A stretch of 32,220 bases of DNA from an uncultured Lachnospiraceae bacterium (GTDB taxonomy: Bacteria; Bacillota; Clostridia; Lachnospirales; Lachnospiraceae), in assembly GCA_947625015.1 (NCBI GenBank), contig CANQMR010000029.1, positions 1 to 32,220 of the forward strand, written 5' to 3'. Shown here one piece after another: positions 6,685 through 32,220 of this stretch (within the stretch, counting starts at the first letter, position 1; the number at the start of each line of letters is the position of its first letter). The position numbers were made by a program, and so were the translations under genes. The notes under the pieces were generated by a model that saw only the letters and a program-made list of their open reading frames with translations, was not told the origin of the DNA and made no database searches.

Positions 6685-6739
6685 ATAAAAAACTTCAAAT
6701 CCAAGGATTTGAAGTCCGGTAATTCTTATGTTCAAATCC
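6685..6739 (-). terminator. riboswitch expression platform: terminator and antiterminator
   Basis: On the minus strand the terminator stem is formed by 6715-6706 with 6701-6692 (ACTTCAAATC / GATTTGAAGT), followed by TTTTTTATT. The sequence GGATTTGAA at 6739-6731, directly after and sharing one base with the aptamer P1 3' strand, is fully complementary to TTCAAATCC in the terminator 5' arm. So an alternative antiterminator helix exists. SAM binding should stabilise P1, free the terminator and switch metK off. The layout is read directly; the mechanism is that of known S-box leaders. Confidence 0.88.
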
Positions 6740-6844
6740 TCTTATTGATCGATGCGTATTACCGCTCGCTTCAGGCCGGCACCTTCCTTTCCGGGGTTGC
6801 CGTGGCTTCTTCGTCCCTTCTGACTCCACCACTCTGAATAAGAG
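6739..6844 (-). ncRNA. SAM-I (S-box) riboswitch aptamer
   Basis: On the minus strand the element opens with CTCTTATT (6844-6837) and closes with AATAAGAG (6746-6739), an 8-bp P1 helix. Inside are the S-box hallmarks: CAGAGTGGTGGAG, then GAAGCCACGGCAACC, then GGTGCCGGCCTG, and a P4/linker region ending in ATCGATC before P1 closes. Order and spacing match the SAM-I class rather than other SAM riboswitch families. It lies between the promoter and metK, with a terminator platform directly downstream. Confidence 0.95.
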
Positions 6845-10323: not shown

Positions 10324-10839
10324 TTATTTGAATTGATGCGCTCCCAACTGGTACTTTGCATTCGCAATGTGCCGGGAGAAAAATAGATATTTTTTCATTT
10401 GTTTCTCTTTACCGTTTACCTTGACTGTGGTGGAGCCTGACAGCGCTTCCTTCGCCGCCTTCATGCAGGAAGTCATCGCATCATCAAAACTGTCTTTCTT
10501 GTTCTGTGTATCGTAAATCTTCAAAGCCTTTTTCATATATCCGTTGCGTACCGGTGAAAACTGCCCTTTCTGGTAAATCACATCCTTTACTTTATCAGGG
10601 AACTTATCGCTTCTCACCCGGTTCATTACGACAATTCCCACTGCCTTCTGGCCTGCATAACTTTCGCCTCTTGCCTCGCAGTAAATGATACTTGTCATAT
10701 AGCGAAGCTCTTTGGCGGTATATTCACTTTCTGTTTTCTTTGCTTTTGTAGTAGCTTTGGTTGTAGCTGCTTCACAGGATACACTTAACATCATACATAA
10801 CATAAGCCCTGCTACAATTACGGTTACTATTTTTTTCAC
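10324..10839 (-). CDS. secreted cell-wall hydrolase, SleB type (Hydrolase_2)
   Basis: Protein of 171 residues with a signal peptide (about 1-24) and a short lysine/threonine-rich linker. A SleB-type catalytic domain (about 45-171) includes YCEARGES with the likely catalytic E55, then VVMNRVRSDKFPDKVKDV, GQFSPV (92-97) and a C-terminal HQF. This family comprises lytic transglycosylase-like cortex or cell-wall hydrolases such as SleB and CwlJ. Without the SleB peptidoglycan-binding domain it resembles the shorter CwlJ-like members but is exported. The start is GTG at 10839, with GGAGG 8 bases upstream. It is transcribed away from the gene-free region that holds the first fold-back element. Confidence 0.88.
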   Translation of the reverse strand: MKKIVTVIVAGLMLCMMLSVSCEAATTKATTKAKKTESEYTAKELRYMTSIIYCEARGESYAGQKAVGIVVMNRVRSDKFPDKVKDVIYQKGQFSPVRNGYMKKALKIYDTQNKKDSFDDAMTSCMKAAKEALSGSTTVKVNGKEKQMKKYLFFSRHIANAKYQLGAHQFK

Positions 10840-11126
10840 TTTTTACACCTCCGAACCCTTATTTTCATAAGGTTCACTTTTTGATTTGCTATATAATCTG
10901 CTACAAAATCCGGAATCGTTGCTGTAATTCCGCAATGTTTTTGTAACAAATTTGTAACATTATTGCATACTTTTTTGATTATGTCAACCTTTATTCAACA
11001 AATAATTGTTTCCAAAATCTAGCATATTCTTTATATTTTCGTCAAAAACACAATATGTACCAATTATTTTTGACAAACCACAACATATTACAAAATTATT
11101 AAATATATTTTTTTATTTGTTAAAAG

Positions 11127-11390
11127 ACTGTCCCGCATATTTAATTGTACGTGCGAAGAAATGTCTACGTACCGGAAAGGGGGCAGGAAACATCTTAAGC
11201 CACGCTTGCGCTCTGTTGAAAACGCAACGGTACATAAGCGGAGGCCCTGTTCATTATGTGATGAATAGCAAATTTTGCATAGAGCCTCCGCAAGTACCGG
11301 CGTTTTCAAAGGGGCTTTAGATGTTTTCCTGTCCCCCCCTTCCCGGTGAAGGTTATTCATGAGCACGTACAATTAAATATGCGGGACAGT
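11127..11390. repeat. 264-bp fold-back (long hairpin) element, copy 1
   Basis: Positions 11127-11154 and 11363-11390 are a perfect 28-bp inverted repeat. Inside it the arms continue to pair: 11171-11201 with 11313-11347, and 11216-11245 with 11284-11310, leaving a loop at 11246-11283. A bulge of about 14 bases (11202-11215, CACGCTTGCG...) exists only in the left arm. No transposase or convincing reading frame is present, and the bases flanking the outer repeat do not match as a target duplication. The core from 11147 to 11370 is shared with a second copy near the window end. The remaining 10840-11574 stretch is AT-rich, with TTGTAACAAATTTGTAAC near 10941 and a possible TATATA -10 near 11462, and holds no gene. 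Confidence 0.9.
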
Positions 11391-11574
11391 TTGGCGGCGG
11401 AAATTCTATAAATTAAAATCCGTATGAAAAAGCGAAAATTTTATCCTGCGGTGATATTTCTATATAAAGTAGGAAGAAAGTGGGAAGAATGGAAACATAT
11501 CCTTGAAATACGGGATAAAAAAGGGTAGAATAAGAGACAGAAGATTAAAATATGAGATGAAAAGGAGGATTGCT

Positions 11575-12222
11575 ATGACATTTGCACATCAGGCAATGAC
11601 CATTAATTCAAGTTATAATAACAGTGTTAAGATTACTGTAATCCCTGGGCATTTTGCCACAAACCATTCCCACATTACCCACTACATTGATATGACGGTA
11701 TTGAAATCCCGCCAGAGTATGGCAAGGGCTGCCGCCAAATCCATCGCCAGCGAGTATGTCGGGACAACCGTTGTTGACACGATTATCTGTATGGACGGTA
11801 CGGAGGTAATCGGTTCTTATCTTGCAGAGGAGCTGACCAACTGCGGAATCATGTCCATGAACCAGCACAAGGCTATCTATGTTGTTACGCCGGAGTTTAA
11901 CTCTGTAGGACAGATGATCTTCCGGGATAATCTGCAACCTATGATTAAGGGCAAGCATGTGTTATTCCTGTTGGCTTCCGCCACCACCGGACGGACCATT
12001 GAGCGAAGCCTTGAGTGCCTGTCTTATTACGGCGGCATCGTAGCCGGTATCTCCGCTATCTTCTCCGCCAACAAGGTAATTGCCGGACAGCAGATTCACA
12101 CCCTGTTCAAGCTAGAGGATATTCCGGAATACAAGACCTATCCGCATAACCAGTGTCCGTTCTGTCAGGCCGGACAGCGGATTGAAGCGATTGTGAACAG
12201 CTACGGTTACTCCAAACTGTAG
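11575..12222 (+). CDS. phosphoribosyltransferase-like protein
   Basis: Protein of 215 residues from ATG 11575, chosen because AAGGAGG lies 6 bases upstream; a longer frame from 11503 has no ribosome-binding site. The order of elements follows the orotate-type phosphoribosyltransferase fold: an MDGTEVIGSYLAEEL strand-helix (73-87), a central IYVVTPEFNS strand, then KHVLFLLASATTGRTIERSL (127-146) where the PRPP loop should be. The loop keeps TTGRT, but the two acidic residues usually before it are L133-A134. The C-terminus carries CPFC (194-197). Known members join PRPP to a base; I cannot say which base, or whether this one is active. It is followed by a bidirectional terminator. Confidence 0.75.
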   Translation: MTFAHQAMTINSSYNNSVKITVIPGHFATNHSHITHYIDMTVLKSRQSMARAAAKSIASEYVGTTVVDTIICMDGTEVIGSYLAEELTNCGIMSMNQHKAIYVVTPEFNSVGQMIFRDNLQPMIKGKHVLFLLASATTGRTIERSLECLSYYGGIVAGISAIFSANKVIAGQQIHTLFKLEDIPEYKTYPHNQCPFCQAGQRIEAIVNSYGYSKL

Positions 12223-13355: not shown

Positions 13356-14885
13356 TTATAAATCCCTATCAATCTGCCAATGACCATTTATTCCTGTTCC
13401 TTCATAATTTACTGTAGGCATTTTATTTAATATTCTTTGCAACGTCCTAAGACTAACATTAAGTCGCCTTGCCATTTCTCTTCTTGTAATCTTTGGGTTT
13501 TCTAATATTAGTTCCATTATCCGTTGCTGGGTGCCATTCCGAGTGCCATTTTGAGTGCCATTCTGAGTGCCATCCTGAGTGCCATTCTGAGTGCCATCCT
13601 GAGTGCCATTCCGTTGCTGAGTGCCATTCCAAGCGCCATTCTGGGTGCCATCCTGAGTGCCATTCCGAGTGCCATCCTGAGTGCCACTTCCCCCAACCTG
13701 TAACTCGGCAACTGCTTCTATTGGAATAACTATTTCAAAAATATCATCTTCAACAAAAATTGGCGTTCCACCTGAATATAATTTTGTGTATTTGTTGGCG
13801 TTTCTCATTCCTGAACCCAATTCATCGGCATATCCAACTTCTCTAAATACTTTAGAAATTAGTGGATTCTTTGGAAATGGATCAAATTTGTTGAGCTGTA
13901 ACTCACCATGTCCATGTGGCAAATTACTATTCTTGGTATACAACTTATCTCTCTCTATTACAAACTGGGCTGTATACCCATTAGAATAATCTCTATGCAC
14001 TAAAATATTTGACACAACTTCTCTAAGGATTTTATCTCTTGCACTTATACTTTGATCTCCTTCCGTCACAAAAACATCATTTAAATGCTTTTTACCAAAA
14101 TCCATTAAAAGACGGAAACTGTCTATAAGATTTGTTATAACAACTTCCCTATCATCATAGCGATCCATATTTTTTACTCTGTAAATTGCATCTGTCTTGT
14201 ATTGCGGTAATACCGACATAATTGTACTATCTTTACCAAAAAGTAGTATTGCAGCAAGAGTAATTCCTTCTTTTCCTGTATCTGGATCTGTTAAAATTAA
14301 ACCTGAACTCCTGAGAATTTCTTCTTCATTCATATTGGTCCATGCATGATTATCTACCCTTGCTAATGCCAGTTTTTTTGCTCTTCTGATAACGTCAAAA
14401 TCCAAAAATTCCAGTCCCAAATTTGAATATACTTTATTTACAAAATATGTGTTTTGTTTTCTCGCATACAATTTATAAACTAATTCTGCATTGTCTGTAA
14501 TATCAATATCACCTTCATATGTTCTGTCAAAAATGCGGCCATTTACCCGTCTCACCTGTGTACCCTTTGGCACATAAATATATATAATCTTCTTTCCATC
14601 AATTTCATAATCCTCTGGAACAAGATACATAGGCGGGTTAATTTTTTTAGAATTATTAATAGCTGTTGTGAACTCTTTCTTCATTTTATCAATTTTATCA
14701 GGATTAATCCCACATATTTCCCTTGTTTCATCGACTATACCAAGAAAAATATGTCCACCATCTCTATTGCTAAAAGAACATACAGTCTCATATAAATCTC
14801 TATTCAATTTATCGTGTGATTTCTTAAATTCAATATCAACTTTTTCACCTGTATTGATAAGTCTTTTAAGTTCCTCTATTGTCAT
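13356..14885 (-). CDS. AlbA_2/Schlafen-type putative transcriptional regulator with HATPase_c_4 and HTH
   Basis: Protein of 509 residues. The AlbA_2 domain (about 12-130) has EFKKSHDKL and [21 protein letters not shown] middle region leads to an HATPase_c_4-type C-terminal domain (about 270-390) with [16 protein letters not shown] and ELGSGMRN. About 395-457 is a low-complexity run of GTQDGTQN units, and the end is a helix-turn-helix ([20 protein letters not shown]). Such proteins are thought to be DNA- or RNA-binding regulators; the target is unknown. AGAAGGTG precedes the ATG, and TTGTCA-16-TAATAA on the minus strand (about 14953-14980) is a weak promoter candidate. Codon use is markedly AT-rich beside its neighbours, suggesting transfer. 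The 163 bases upstream hold no gene. Confidence 0.82.
13529..13690. repeat. 12-bp tandem repeat encoding GTQ(D/N) units
   Basis: About thirteen imperfect copies of a 12-bp unit (plus strand GAGTGCCATYCT) lie in frame inside the AlbA_2 gene. Each unit encodes four residues, G-T-Q-D or G-T-Q-N, and the run is broken by a few QQR or W variants. Because the unit is a multiple of three, slippage would change linker length without breaking the frame. Confidence 0.9.
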
Positions 14886-19330: not shown

Positions 19331-19358
19331 CTATATCTCAACTATCCGCCATTGCTGT

Positions 19359-20885
19359 TCAAGAAGATGAAGCGGCAAACAATGCGGCGATCTCATCCGG
19401 CGTAAGCTGTTTGTTCGGATCGTCAGAGATTGGCTGTACCTTGACCGGTTCCTTTTTCGGGGCCGGTTCCGCAGCCGCAAACAATGCGGCAATCTCATCC
19501 GGCGTAAGCTGCTTGTTCGGATCATCAGAAACCGGGGCCACCGCTTTCGGCTCCGGCGCGGGTTCCGGCTTAGCTTCCTTCTTAGGCGCGGGGTCCGCAG
19601 CCGCAAACAATGCGGCAATCTCATCCGGCGTAAGCTGTTTGTTCGGATCATTACCCAGATCGCCAATCGTCTTAATCTGACCTGAAACCGGTTCGGCAAC
19701 AGGTTCTTCTGCCTGTCCCGCAAACTCCTCTATCGTCTCTTCAACGGCTTTCTCTGCCGGACCCGCAACAGGTTCTTCTGTCTGTCCCGCAAACTCCTCT
19801 ACTGTCTCCTCAACGGTTTTCTCCGCCAGACCCGCAACAGGTTCTTCGGCTTGTCCCGCAAACTCCTCTATTGTCTCCTCAACAGCTTTCTCCGCCAGAC
19901 CCGCAGCAGATTCTTCTTCGGTCTGCCCTGCAAACTCTTCCGCCGCTAATCCCCCAACGGGTTCCTCCGGCAGTGTTCCTATCGGTTCCTGCTCATCAGA
20001 TCTGCCCACAACTGTAAAAGTCGGCGTAAATTCTTCCGGGCTCTCCGTTCCGGCGTCAACGGTTTCTGTAACTGCTTTTGCAGGTTCTTCTATGGGTTCC
20101 ATTCCTTCCTGACCCTTGTTCTCTGCCACAGCCTCCGCCTCATTCACTGCGAAGCCCCCCTGCGCCGCCTCAACGGCCGTTACGTCAGGCATACCCGCCA
20201 CAGGCTGCACATTTGCGGCAAACCGGATATGTTGAATACTGTTAGACACATTCTGTAATTCTCTGGCTATGCTGTTTAACTGTATACCCATCTCCTGATC
20301 CATGCTGCCGGACTGGCTCTTTAAATATTCTACAATCTCTCCCAAAGTATTGACAACCTCTGTGTTGTCCGGCTGTAACTGATCAAATCCCTGCACCATG
20401 GTGTCGCTTATCTGGTTCCGCAGGTCCTTAATCGTAGAAATAACCTTGGTCGTATTGCTCTGGTCATATTTAATCATCAGTTTCGTCGCCTTGTTATGGG
20501 CATTGGACAGGGAAATCAGATTCTTATAAAGCGCTTCCTGGCTCTCGCTGTAATTATTCTCTAAGGCAGCCACGCTCTTGGCGGCCTTCCGGGTATAGAG
20601 ATAAGTCGCCTTTCCAATCTGTGTCTGTACGCCGCTCATGGCTTCTAATTGGTTGGCAATGCCGTCCACAGAATTCTTAATCTGCACATTCAGGGATTTG
20701 TTCCGCATGGTGGCGAAAGAAATTATGCTCTGGGTCAAAATGAACGCACAAATCAGAAATAAGGCGCTCATTCCGATTACGGCAAAAAAGAGATTATGAT
20801 ACATGATTAAGGTATAAATCAACCCTATGCCGGACGTCAGGGTGGCTAACACCCAGACCGCAAGTTTGTTGTCCTGTCTACTCAT
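19359..20885 (-). CDS. membrane-anchored repeat protein with three FliM-like C-terminal peptides
   Basis: Protein of 508 residues of no family I recognise. Two adjacent membrane helices lie near the N-terminus (VLATLTSGIGLIYTLIMY and FFAVIGMSALFLICAFIL). A helical, coiled-coil-like region of about 180 residues follows. Next is an acidic alanine/glutamate-rich region with four 23-residue repeats (EEFAGQ.EEPVAG.AEK.VEET). The end holds three copies of DPNKQLTPDEIAALFAA (413-429, 455-471, 489-505) joined by proline/lysine linkers. LTPDEIAALF resembles the CheY-binding N-terminal peptide of FliM (LSQDEIDALL). The helices and coiled coil suggest a membrane scaffold with cytoplasmic docking peptides; that is inference. 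It has its own promoter (20968-20996), GGAGG before the ATG and a terminator, so it is a single-gene unit. Confidence 0.8.
   Translation of the reverse strand: MSRQDNKLAVWVLATLTSGIGLIYTLIMYHNLFFAVIGMSALFLICAFILTQSIISFATMRNKSLNVQIKNSVDGIANQLEAMSGVQTQIGKATYLYTRKAAKSVAALENNYSESQEALYKNLISLSNAHNKATKLMIKYDQSNTTKVISTIKDLRNQISDTMVQGFDQLQPDNTEVVNTLGEIVEYLKSQSGSMDQEMGIQLNSIARELQNVSNSIQHIRFAANVQPVAGMPDVTAVEAAQGGFAVNEAEAVAENKGQEGMEPIEEPAKAVTETVDAGTESPEEFTPTFTVVGRSDEQEPIGTLPEEPVGGLAAEEFAGQTEEESAAGLAEKAVEETIEEFAGQAEEPVAGLAEKTVEETVEEFAGQTEEPVAGPAEKAVEETIEEFAGQAEEPVAEPVSGQIKTIGDLGNDPNKQLTPDEIAALFAAADPAPKKEAKPEPAPEPKAVAPVSDDPNKQLTPDEIAALFAAAEPAPKKEPVKVQPISDDPNKQLTPDEIAALFAASSS
19369..19652. repeat. three ~51-bp repeats encoding the LTPDEIAALFA peptide
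   Basis: The unit reads, on the plus strand, GCGGCRATCTCATCCGGCGT followed by AAGCTGYTTGTTCGGATC. It occurs near 19385, 19487 and 19612. The copies are almost identical in DNA, while the linkers between them differ, suggesting recent duplication or strong constraint on the peptide. Confidence 0.85.
19693..19945. repeat. 69-bp tandem repeats in the repeat protein gene
   Basis: GCAAACTCCTC recurs at 19720, 19789 and 19858 (69 bp apart), and a diverged GCAAACTCTTC occurs at 19930 (72 bp). The units encode the 23-residue acidic repeat between the helical region and the C-terminal peptides. Confidence 0.85.
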
Positions 20886-29802: not shown

Positions 29803-31656
29803 ATGATGAAACATTTTAACCTGCGGTCTGTTGCCTGTGTTATATTCATGTTTGCATTAGTATTAATTTGTGTATCCGGCAATGTATACGCCGCTTCTGA
29901 TGATCCCGGTGCAGACAGGTTATCCGGTAGAAATATTCCGGAGGAATTTTATGGCGAACCCAGCAACCCGTTTTCAAGGATTTCCAGATTTGGCGCTTTT
30001 ACTTCAGCATGTCCATTCACTAATGAGACGTATACGCATCAGGATGCTTTTGTGAACCGTCCCATTTCTCATGGCATGGATGTAAGCCAATGGCAGAAAG
30101 ATATTGACTGGGCTGCCGCAAAGGCCGCCGGTATTGAGTTTGCTTTTGTTCGCGTGGGATACCGCGGCTATGGAGACGCCGGCACTTTAAATGAGAGTAC
30201 CAAAGATATATATTTTGACCAGAATATGAAAAACGCCAATGCCGCAGGCATTCCGGTAGGCATTTACGTTTTTTCCCAGGCAATCACCCCTGCGGAAGCT
30301 GTGGAGGAAGCGAATTACATTTTGCAGCATATCGGCTCCTACCGGATTTCCATGCCGTTAATCATGGATTATGAATATGCAAGCGACAGTAACAGCGGCG
30401 GCCGTTTGAAAAAAGCCAAGCTGTCCAAAGACGCAGCCACCGAAGTATGTATGGCTTTCTGTAGCACCATTGCAGCAGCCGGATATACCCCAATGGTCTA
30501 TGCCAACAAAAGCATGCTGACCAACCAGCTTAATGCAAAGACCATTACCGACAACGGTTATCGGATATGGCTGGCACACTACACAAAGAACACTGATTAC
30601 ACCGGCGAATTTGATTTCTGGCAGTACAGCTCCCAGGGCAAAGTCAACGGCATATCCGGAAATGTAGATATGAATTTCTACTATGCAAAAGAAGGGGATA
30701 ACTTTGAATTAATCGGTATTCCCCTTGGCAGTACTGTAATTTCTCCTGTTGCAAATCAGGCGTATACCGGTCAGAAGATTACTCCGGCCGTCACCTTGAC
30801 CTACGAGGGAATCCCGTTAACTGAGAATACAGATTACACGTTAAAATACAAGGACAACAAGAATCTAGGAACCGCCAGCATAATCATTAACGGAAAAGGC
30901 CGGTTTGGCGGCTCCATAACCGTTAAATTCAATATTGTTCCGAAGCGGCCTTCCAATATTAAGGCAAAAAAACGAACAGACAATTATATTACATTGAAGT
31001 GGCCAAAGATCGGTACCGCTACAGGCTATCAGATCTATCGGGCGACCTCCCCCAACGGCACTTACAAAAAAATTAAGCAGTTCTCCAAAAACTCAACCAT
31101 TACTTACAAGAATACAGGACTGACCGGAGGCCAGCGGTATTACTACAAAATCCGCACCTTTATCAAATCCAACGGTAAGACTTATTTCAGCGATTACTCC
31201 CCTGTAGCGGCTATAGATACGCCGCTGGGTTATCACAGATATGCGGAAGCCAAAAGCGGCGCCGTTATATATGCTTCCGAATCCACGTCCGACACAGTAA
31301 TCGCCACACCGGCTCCGGGCGCCAAAATGACTGTTTCTTACAGTACAGTGGATAACAACGGCACCACCTGGTATTGCGTATCTTACCAGGCGGAAGGGCA
31401 GACCTTTACCGGTATGGTAAAGAAATCCAAAGTTACCGTTACCATGAACGGAAAAGTTGCCAAGACCAACATTGTCAATGTGCGGAAGTCAGCCAGCACT
31501 TCATCCAAAAAGCTGACCTCCCTAAAGAAAAACAAGAAAGTGACCGTCTTAAAAACCAAGACCAAGAAAGGCGTCACCTGGTATCAGGTAACTTTCAAAA
31601 AGAGCGGCAAGACCTACAAAGGCTGGATATCTGCTCCCTACCTGAAACTCACATAA
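29803..31656 (+). CDS. secreted GH25 lysozyme with Ig-like, Fn3 and SH3 domains
   Basis: Protein of 617 residues. Domains in order: signal peptide (1-30, ending VYA); a linker; and a GH25 muramidase domain (about 90-305) with GMDVSQWQ (91-98), the catalytic D189 and E191 in MDYEY, and a closing GNVDMNFYY. An Ig-like segment (about 310-385), an Fn3 domain (about 386-480, TGYQIYRATS, YYYKIRTF) and two bacterial SH3 domains (about 488-550 and 552-617, WYCVSYQAEG and VNVRKSASTSS) follow. It cuts the MurNAc-GlcNAc bond of peptidoglycan outside the cell. Its own signal peptide and wall-binding domains, and the absence of phage genes, argue for a cellular hydrolase rather than a prophage lysin. AGGAGAGGAG lies 10 bases before ATG 29803; ATG 29806 is equally possible. 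A strong terminator follows. Confidence 0.94.
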   Translation: MMKHFNLRSVACVIFMFALVLICVSGNVYAASDDPGADRLSGRNIPEEFYGEPSNPFSRISRFGAFTSACPFTNETYTHQDAFVNRPISHGMDVSQWQKDIDWAAAKAAGIEFAFVRVGYRGYGDAGTLNESTKDIYFDQNMKNANAAGIPVGIYVFSQAITPAEAVEEANYILQHIGSYRISMPLIMDYEYASDSNSGGRLKKAKLSKDAATEVCMAFCSTIAAAGYTPMVYANKSMLTNQLNAKTITDNGYRIWLAHYTKNTDYTGEFDFWQYSSQGKVNGISGNVDMNFYYAKEGDNFELIGIPLGSTVISPVANQAYTGQKITPAVTLTYEGIPLTENTDYTLKYKDNKNLGTASIIINGKGRFGGSITVKFNIVPKRPSNIKAKKRTDNYITLKWPKIGTATGYQIYRATSPNGTYKKIKQFSKNSTITYKNTGLTGGQRYYYKIRTFIKSNGKTYFSDYSPVAAIDTPLGYHRYAEAKSGAVIYASESTSDTVIATPAPGAKMTVSYSTVDNNGTTWYCVSYQAEGQTFTGMVKKSKVTVTMNGKVAKTNIVNVRKSASTSSKKLTSLKKNKKVTVLKTKTKKGVTWYQVTFKKSGKTYKGWISAPYLKLT

Positions 31657-31670
31657 ATTTAATTTTACCA

Positions 31671-31704
31671 TTGGCGGATACTCTATGTTATCCGCCAATT
31701 TTTT
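31671..31704 (+). terminator. intrinsic terminator of the GH25 lysozyme gene
   Basis: TTGGCGGATA (31671-31680) and TATCCGCCAA (31689-31698) form a 10-bp stem, followed by TTTTTT (31699-31704). The left arm and loop also take part in the much larger inverted repeat that follows. Confidence 0.9.
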
Positions 31705-32143
31705 ATGCCTGCCGCCGCCGGGGAATCCTATCCTGTTTTTCCTGACACGCGGTTTTTTAGAAATCCGCCGTCTGCCGGTTCTGCCTGTTGCACGTGCGAA
31801 GAAATGTCTGAGCGCTGGGGAAGGGGTGTTGGGCAAACATCATGCAGCCACGCTTTCGCTCTGTTGAAAACGCAGCGGTACATAAGCGGAGCCCTTATGG
31901 GAAATTTGCTATTCATCACATAATGAACAGGGGCTCCGCAAGTACCGGCGTTTTCAAAGGGGCTGCTGATGTTTCCCAACTACCCCTCCCCCGGCGCGAG
32001 TTCTTCGGGAGCACGTGCAATAACACAGGCAGAACCGGCAGACGGCAGGATTTCTTAAAACCGAAACCAGTGCAGGAAAAACAGGATAGGATTCCCCGGC
32101 GGCGGCAGATACAAGAAAGGCAACGGTACATAGAATATCCGCC
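31673..32143. repeat. 471-bp fold-back element, copy 2, with extended outer arms
   Basis: Inverted-repeat blocks pair in order from outside in: 31673-31688 with 32128-32143 (15 of 16), 31709-31744 with 32073-32108 (36 of 36), 31767-31787 with 32026-32046 (21 of 21), and GCACGTGC at 31790-31797 with 32011-32018. The core (31790-32018) is the part shared with copy 1; its inner stem is 31886-31894 with 31931-31939, and the loop is 31895-31930. The outer arms have no counterpart in copy 1. Several frames cross the element, but they change frame with strand and look incidental. The final 77 bases (32144-32220) are AT-rich with nothing I can assign. Confidence 0.9.
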
Positions 32144-32220
32144 AGCTAGCGTAAAGTTTTTGTAGGAAAATAAAATAGAGAAGAGGATACCAACTTGTGT
32201 TAAAATATAAAAAACCAAAC

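Follow-up and report, generated by a model that had tools for sequence, protein, structure and literature searches.

Among the described repeats with which an intergenic fold-back element can be compared, MITEs are short, non-coding and present in many copies, and are recognised by terminal inverted repeats (TIRs), target-site duplications and ends in common with an autonomous transposon. REPs, which are tens of bp long, BIMEs and REPINs consist of imperfect hairpins whose foot bears a conserved tetranucleotide, and BIMEs and REPINs form inverted pairs and tandem arrays. Integron attC sites, which stand in cassette arrays, are recognised in their folded DNA form, in which extrahelical bases are conserved and the terminal stem varies. 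Correia/NEMIS, ERIC and bcr1 are intergenic palindromic repeats of mobile origin, and to our knowledge Shine-Dalgarno homing has been reported for none of them.

We analysed a window of 32,220 nucleotides (contig CANQMR010000029.1 of an uncultured Lachnospiraceae bacterium, assembly GCA_947625015.1) that contains two copies of a fold-back element. These copies are probably members of a Lachnospiraceae superfamily of non-autonomous, non-coding fold-back DNA transposable elements, in which a conserved asymmetric core lies inside long complementary arms. Subtypes have a common core and different ends: type A is a common subtype, and the window copies belong to type B. The element resembles MITEs in being short, non-coding and repeated, with TIRs and target-site duplications in type A, but differs in that no autonomous relative was found and in having one core with different ends among subtypes; type A also differs in the varying length of its duplication (8-17 bp) and in its insertion beside the Shine-Dalgarno sequence. 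With REPs, BIMEs and REPINs it shares the imperfect hairpin, the conserved tetranucleotide, the inverted pairs and the tandem arrays, but it is 200-480 bp long, type A has target duplications and Y1 transposase is missing in five element-rich carriers. Recognition by folding as DNA would make the element an analogue of attC sites, which likewise keep extrahelical bases and vary in the terminal stem; unlike them, it occurs as dispersed single copies with target duplications. It shares intergenic position, palindromic structure and mobile origin with Correia/NEMIS, ERIC and bcr1, but host, sequence and core are different. Our literature search, whose coverage was sparse for subscription journals and preprints, returned no description of such an element, and no Lachnospiraceae are named in the accessible part of an earlier survey of stem-loop families (PMC2267715).

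Results

Two fold-back elements in the window

The original prediction had recognised two copies with common blocks, and these are present as a 226-nt direct repeat of 71% identity; a covariance model built from 66 other cores matches the window at exactly two places, copies 1 and 2. Copy 1 (11127-11390, + strand) is a short type-B element whose outermost arms (11127-11154 and 11363-11390) form a perfect 28-bp match, being 100% complementary. Its conserved core (11178-11349, +; E 1.6e-14, 64.5 bits with the family covariance model) contains the mini-hairpin ACGCTTGCGCT (11202-11212, +), two bp of which covary family-wide (C-G in 58 and T-A in 8 of the 66 cores; G-C in 61, A-T in 4 and A.C in one), and a bulged stem, CGGTAC (11228-11233) with GTACCG (11294-11299), around a variable apical stem-loop (11228-11299, +). 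Copy 2 is a full-length type-B element of ~475 bp (31671-32145, +), with outer ends (~31671 and ~32145) taken from the fold and from the alignment of copies. Its predicted core, 31790-32018, was too short an extent, for the complementary arms run from ~31671 to 32145 and pair 31699-31744 with 32073-32118 (91% complementary) and 31750-31788 with 32025-32063 (82%). The conserved core of copy 2 lies at 31826-31997 (+; E 1.3e-15, 68.7 bits), and its apical 54 nt (31886-31939, +) are inverted relative to 11238-11291 of copy 1 (inverted repeat, 89% complementary). The outer arms of other copies are missing from copy 1 on both sides at equivalent places, and its orthologue in genome G023 has the same short form. 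Both copies are true fold-backs, as predicted: with DNA parameters the fold had a z of -11.8 for 11100-11410 (copy 1) and -26.1 for 31660-32165 (copy 2), and in each case none of 100 shuffled sequences folded as well. The copies, predicted to lack coding content, are intergenic, and no frame of the core recurs as a gene.

The arms of copy 2 begin 15 nt 3' of the stop codon of the gene at 29803-31656. Genes for wall-active enzymes had been noted beside both copies and are recognised by Pfam, as Hydrolase_2 (10324-10839) near copy 1 and GH25 (29803-31656) near copy 2; because the genome holds about 50 copies, we take this adjacency to be probably a coincidence. The gene adjoining copy 1 on the other side (11560-12222) is matched in nearly all genus genomes searched and has no Pfam match. 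Elsewhere, the window contains a SAM riboswitch (6739-6844, - strand), a 12-bp repeat array (13496-13710) inside a 509-aa frame with a Schlafen/AlbA_2 domain (13356-14885), and 69- and 102/126-bp spaced repeats (19347-19917) inside a 508-aa frame (19359-20885).

Copy number and range

Two copies in 21 kb had been predicted; this is correct for the window, but the genome holds far more. A DNA search of the own genome (G000, 2.8 Mb) gave 36 matches, counted by hand as 31 copies, two partial places (C7 and the contig end of C32) and two opposite-strand self-matches, and the covariance model gave at least 54, a lower bound because 126 of 320 candidates were scored. With up to 126 candidates scored per genome, the model found the core in every one of the 26 genus genomes, with between 2 and 101 matches per genome. 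It was present in at least 82 of 200 genomes of the family and at least 4 of 249 in a phylum sample, the four being the own genome and three others from Lachnospiraceae; both counts are lower bounds because strict filters were applied and 16 and 13 candidates, respectively, were scored per genome. Under these filters the model placed no core outside Lachnospiraceae in the 249-genome sample.

A DNA search of 60 relatives, followed by a pattern search of the genus, revealed that far more divergent elements share one core, which reads as the mini-hairpin CGCTTNCGCT, then GYAR, CGGTACATAA, a variable stem-loop, AAGTACCG and RCG. In a species-genome collection this pattern matched at least 119 stretches; among the 80 matches listed, the titles are mostly Lachnospiraceae with a few others, of which L106 and L190 lack the flanking core. 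The core is also present in bins titled Muribaculum and Gastranaerophilales in a sample series, for which we suspect mixed binning. Four patterns matched 4, 15, 16 and 1 stretches of viral collections, which we estimate to be about the chance number for 16-letter patterns, and the core was visible only in L374. A search of phages gave one record, MT839589.1 ('Bacteriophage sp.', L375), which has the core near its end and frames that look bacterial or chromosomal, one of them NUDIX; a search of plasmids returned no element. Rfam had nothing at the element in the window, in one stretch at E up to 1 or in 16 loci at E up to 1. The original prediction had proposed searches of the genome and its relatives, including one with a covariance model, and these found many copies at differing sites, which favours mobility, with further model matches in the own genome and in other Lachnospiraceae. 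The two outcomes that it would have counted as a refutation, a lack of further copies and a match to a named family, did not occur in the collections searched.

Covariation of the core and arms

The 66 cores behind the covariance model are less than 80% alike; they include L068 and L077 from other places in this genome but neither window copy. The covariation score of these cores was 0.421, compared to 0.162 ± 0.008 for shuffled and at most 0.122 for slid controls, and 268 cells had changed on both sides against 88 in the control. The covariation is almost entirely between Watson-Crick pairs: at column pair 61-104, 35 of the 66 cores have T-A and 31 have C-G, with no intermediate. The invariance of the CGGTAC/GTACCG stem is uninformative, because both strings belonged to the search pattern. 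Summed over the mini-hairpin, stem 2 and the apical stem, the cells were Watson-Crick in 737 cases, G.T in 8, A.C in 21 and of another kind in 26; a single pair whose A is fixed by the search pattern accounts for eight of the A.C cells, and leaving this pair out gives 8 G.T to 13 A.C. All six helices gave 33 G.T to 52 A.C (44 without the pattern-fixed pair), and 135 apical stems gave 734 Watson-Crick, 8 G.T and 16 A.C. The long arms, aligned with a score that weighs G.T and A.C equally, gave 148 G.T to 169 A.C in 153 instances and 163 to 185 in 102 cluster representatives. By comparison, 22 tRNA genes from the same loci gave 40 G.T to 5 A.C, in a control that is small and depends on ARAGORN, which itself prefers G.T to A.C pairs. 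Fisher tests gave p ≤ 4e-5, for related sequences that are not independent.

These counts bear on the possibility, raised in the original prediction, that the copies represent a structured RNA. We considered this as a non-coding RNA, ribozyme or riboregulator gene family, multiplied in the genome, whose covariation would reflect RNA folding. Such a family could well have an asymmetric, highly conserved core with internal loops, a heptaloop and strong covariation, and the intergenic placement, often in 5' leaders, is also in its favour. However, a G.U preference is absent throughout, unlike in the tRNA genes, pair 61-104 changes without an intermediate, type A stands in both orientations relative to the gene (see below) and no Rfam match was obtained. 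We consider this explanation weakened and unlikely. Given the near absence of G.U from the covariation, the fold looks to be maintained as DNA, or via copying from arm to arm, rather than as single-strand RNA; the missing G.U preference would also be expected with periodic copying between the arms, or with a need for the RNAs of either strand to fold.

Comparison of nine copy pairs between G000 and G023 gave 30 double changes from one Watson-Crick pair to another in 1859 pairs, for ~2.5 expected from the per-site rate. Three of these copy pairs lie at rearranged junctions; the six clean orthologues gave 11 double changes in 1199 pairs, for ~0.8 expected. As judged from these alignments, the two arms co-evolve. 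Single changes that leave mismatches are frequent (97 of 1859 pairs in the nine copy pairs), and arm copying therefore fits better than strict purifying selection; the single-change mismatches between orthologues (45 G.T, 31 A.C, 58 transversions) lean slightly to G.T. Rearrangement junctions between G000 and G023 were found at copies: L051 unites the flanks of L003 and L004, while L032, L038 and L047 recombine the flanks of L008, L013 and L015.

Type A: ends, target duplications and insertion sites

Type-A elements are ~205 bp long and have TIRs at both ends (TAGGYRATTGCGAAAC...GTTTCGCAATYRCCTA); the fold of one example had a z of -5.8. With up to two mismatches allowed, genome G016 contains ~82 forward and ~83 reverse type-A ends. 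Direct repeats of at least 9 bp flanked 24 of 33 elements compared to 11 of 500 mispaired flanks, and in a second set such repeats were found at 18 of 28 elements compared to 3 of 400. When one mismatch was allowed, 43 of 54 elements had target duplications of 8-17 bp, mostly 13 or 14, and in the other 11 a duplication was not detectable.

Type A is inserted beside the Shine-Dalgarno sequence. We restored the targets by deleting the element and one of its repeats. A Shine-Dalgarno-like 5-mer then lay no more than 14 nt away on one side but not the other in 37 of the 43 (29 targets came from G016, 25 of them with the motif; the other 14, from seven or more further genomes, included 12 with it), compared to 842 of 8308 intergenic positions (10.1%) and 11% of random positions. 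Two of the remaining six had the motif on both sides and four had none by this rule, although inspection by eye suggests a ribosome-binding site with start codon in two of these four, L280 and L290. The distance between the duplication and the start of the motif was 3-6 nt in 28 of the 37 one-sided targets. By an alternative measure, a Shine-Dalgarno sequence with a start codon was in reach of 37 of 46 elements (a count in which L298 was entered twice), compared to 15% of random positions within 60 nt, and lay 16-22 nt from the element end in 34 of these 37. Relative to the gene, 21 elements had the same orientation, 12 the opposite one and 4 had sites on both sides. We infer that plain recognition of AAAGGAG in DNA would be enough for this choice of site.

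Some type-A elements of G016 and G020 (L274, L275, L276 and L277) are 258-572 bp long, with the apical or mini-hairpin arm expanded by nested hairpins. Type-A end pairs only 54 and 105 bp apart (G060:C8:7043-7096 and G063:C19:110233-110337) are possibly deletion derivatives.

Type B: the subtype of the window copies

The 30 type-B copies that were fetched are ~480 bp long, copy 1 being shorter, and their ends differ from copy to copy yet are self-complementary. As the original prediction had said of the window, no convincing target duplication was found in type B, both window copies included; a general scan gave direct repeats in 37 of 153 instances compared to 10% by mispairing, and these were mostly type A. 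Among the options of the prediction, the MITE-like one is supported, by the number of copies at differing sites between genes, by the lack of a coding partner and, in type A, the best-preserved subtype, by TIRs and target duplications; the subtype in the window has copy-specific ends and no convincing duplications, and no autonomous relative was found. Type A behaves like a MITE; a strict MITE label for the window copies would go beyond the evidence.

A stop codon lay at most 55 nt upstream of 23 of the 30 type-B copies (mechanical frames, hand count), and in co-directional settings the gene end was the nearer in 19 of 21 cases. Copy 2 conforms to this pattern, while copy 1 stands between divergent genes. 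The original prediction had also considered a processing or termination module, and type B could accordingly be seen as bidirectional terminators or mRNA-processing hairpins, diverse immobile palindromes selected behind genes. The position behind stop codons agrees with this, as do the outer arms of some copies, such as 31671-31700 in copy 2, which resemble a terminator hairpin with a T run. Against it are type A, which sits before genes and not behind them, and a conservation of the core far above what a terminator needs. In addition, comparison of orthologous intergenic regions at copy 1, as originally suggested, found nothing corresponding in five of six aligned relatives (L214, L215, L218, L220 and L230). 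Termination or processing as the whole explanation appears decidedly improbable, although type-B copies may have a termination role. The absence of copy 1 from the intergenic regions of these relatives supports insertion, at a junction that is unreadable in them because the intergenic DNA aligns poorly. The sixth relative, G017, carries a different superfamily member in the orthologous region (L216, corresponding to 10900-11575 of the window), an independent member accompanied by an extra frame.

Search for a mover

The original prediction had seen no transposase, and we found none for the element in searches for Y1 and IS1 types, for paired type-A ends, for open half-cores and for recurrent neighbour genes. 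The Y1 transposase domain PF01797 was absent from G000, G023, G025, G010 and G004, which have 34-58 model matches each (completeness 98% for G000, 85-86% for G004 and G023), and was found in 13 of the 26 genus genomes; a RAYT/Y1 transposase was on this basis ruled out as mover for this genome. The result also concerns the idea that the elements are REP/REPIN-type repeats moved by a RAYT (Y1, HUH) transposase, GYAR being the conserved 5' tetranucleotide of the hairpin. GYAR is indeed conserved at the hairpin foot, and inverted core pairs 300-460 bp apart occur in G018 and G411, as do tandem arrays in G415 (L354, L355 and L356: three units of 187 bp, four of 164 bp and two of 137 bp). Against it, PF01797 is missing from five element-rich genomes, and Y1 elements are not known for target duplications of 8-17 bp. 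This origin is very unlikely in our view.

The ends of the element resemble those of IS1. An IS1-derived element was ruled out, as PF03400 was found in 0 of 26 genus genomes while the E. coli control was positive. No inward pair of type-A ends enclosed a transposase, and so no ends in common with an autonomous transposon were seen, in the complete lists for G060 and G063 or among the listed end places of G016, 100 of 165; a 2.3-kb G016 end pair examined as an autonomous element proved to be two elements. Half-cores closed within 160 nt in 153 of 157 cases, so that no open autonomous form was seen, and of the four that failed the pattern, L146 and L315 are plainly closed by a changed partner, L164 and L244 less plainly. 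No recurrent gene of mobility type was present among the neighbour clusters. The commonest cluster (20 loci) is made up of frames called mechanically across the element, and the one of these that was checked had no Pfam match. Three representatives each place the next two clusters, with 15 and 7 loci, among ABC transporters and MATE proteins, common families that are not mobility genes.

Discussion

Our preferred reading remains that the window copies belong to a superfamily of fold-back DNA transposable elements. Because subtypes with unlike ends have the core in common, we propose it as the part read by the mobilising enzyme. The core comprises a mini-hairpin of two bp and, next to it, a stem that is interrupted by a bulged AR dinucleotide and an ATAA/AA internal loop and topped by a stem-loop that covaries freely. 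A trans-acting enzyme may read it as folded DNA, either single-stranded or cruciform. In type A, the enzyme or a partner may also read the AAAGGAG of ribosome-binding sites, and new copies would thereby land in a safe place between promoter and gene. The chances seem to us evenly balanced that the superfamily is inherited and recognised as a folded DNA shape, and that one branch homes to the Shine-Dalgarno sequence via the enzyme, duplicating 8-17 bp. Speaking against our preferred reading, a common core with different ends is unexplained by a simple pair of transposase and TIR.

The strong covariation without G.U is a warning that RNA discovery pipelines could list such DNA structures as RNAs. 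Element copies are also found where species differ by rearrangement and at the ends of contigs in draft genomes. If our reading holds, a dominant bacterial family of the human and animal gut carries an abundant class of repeats that the sources searched do not describe, and large hairpins stand in many 5' leaders, where effects on expression are likely. Homing to ribosome-binding sites would then be a rare case of bacterial targeting of a generic gene landmark and, if true, type A would be a bacterial counterpart of the transposons that target safe sites at gene starts.
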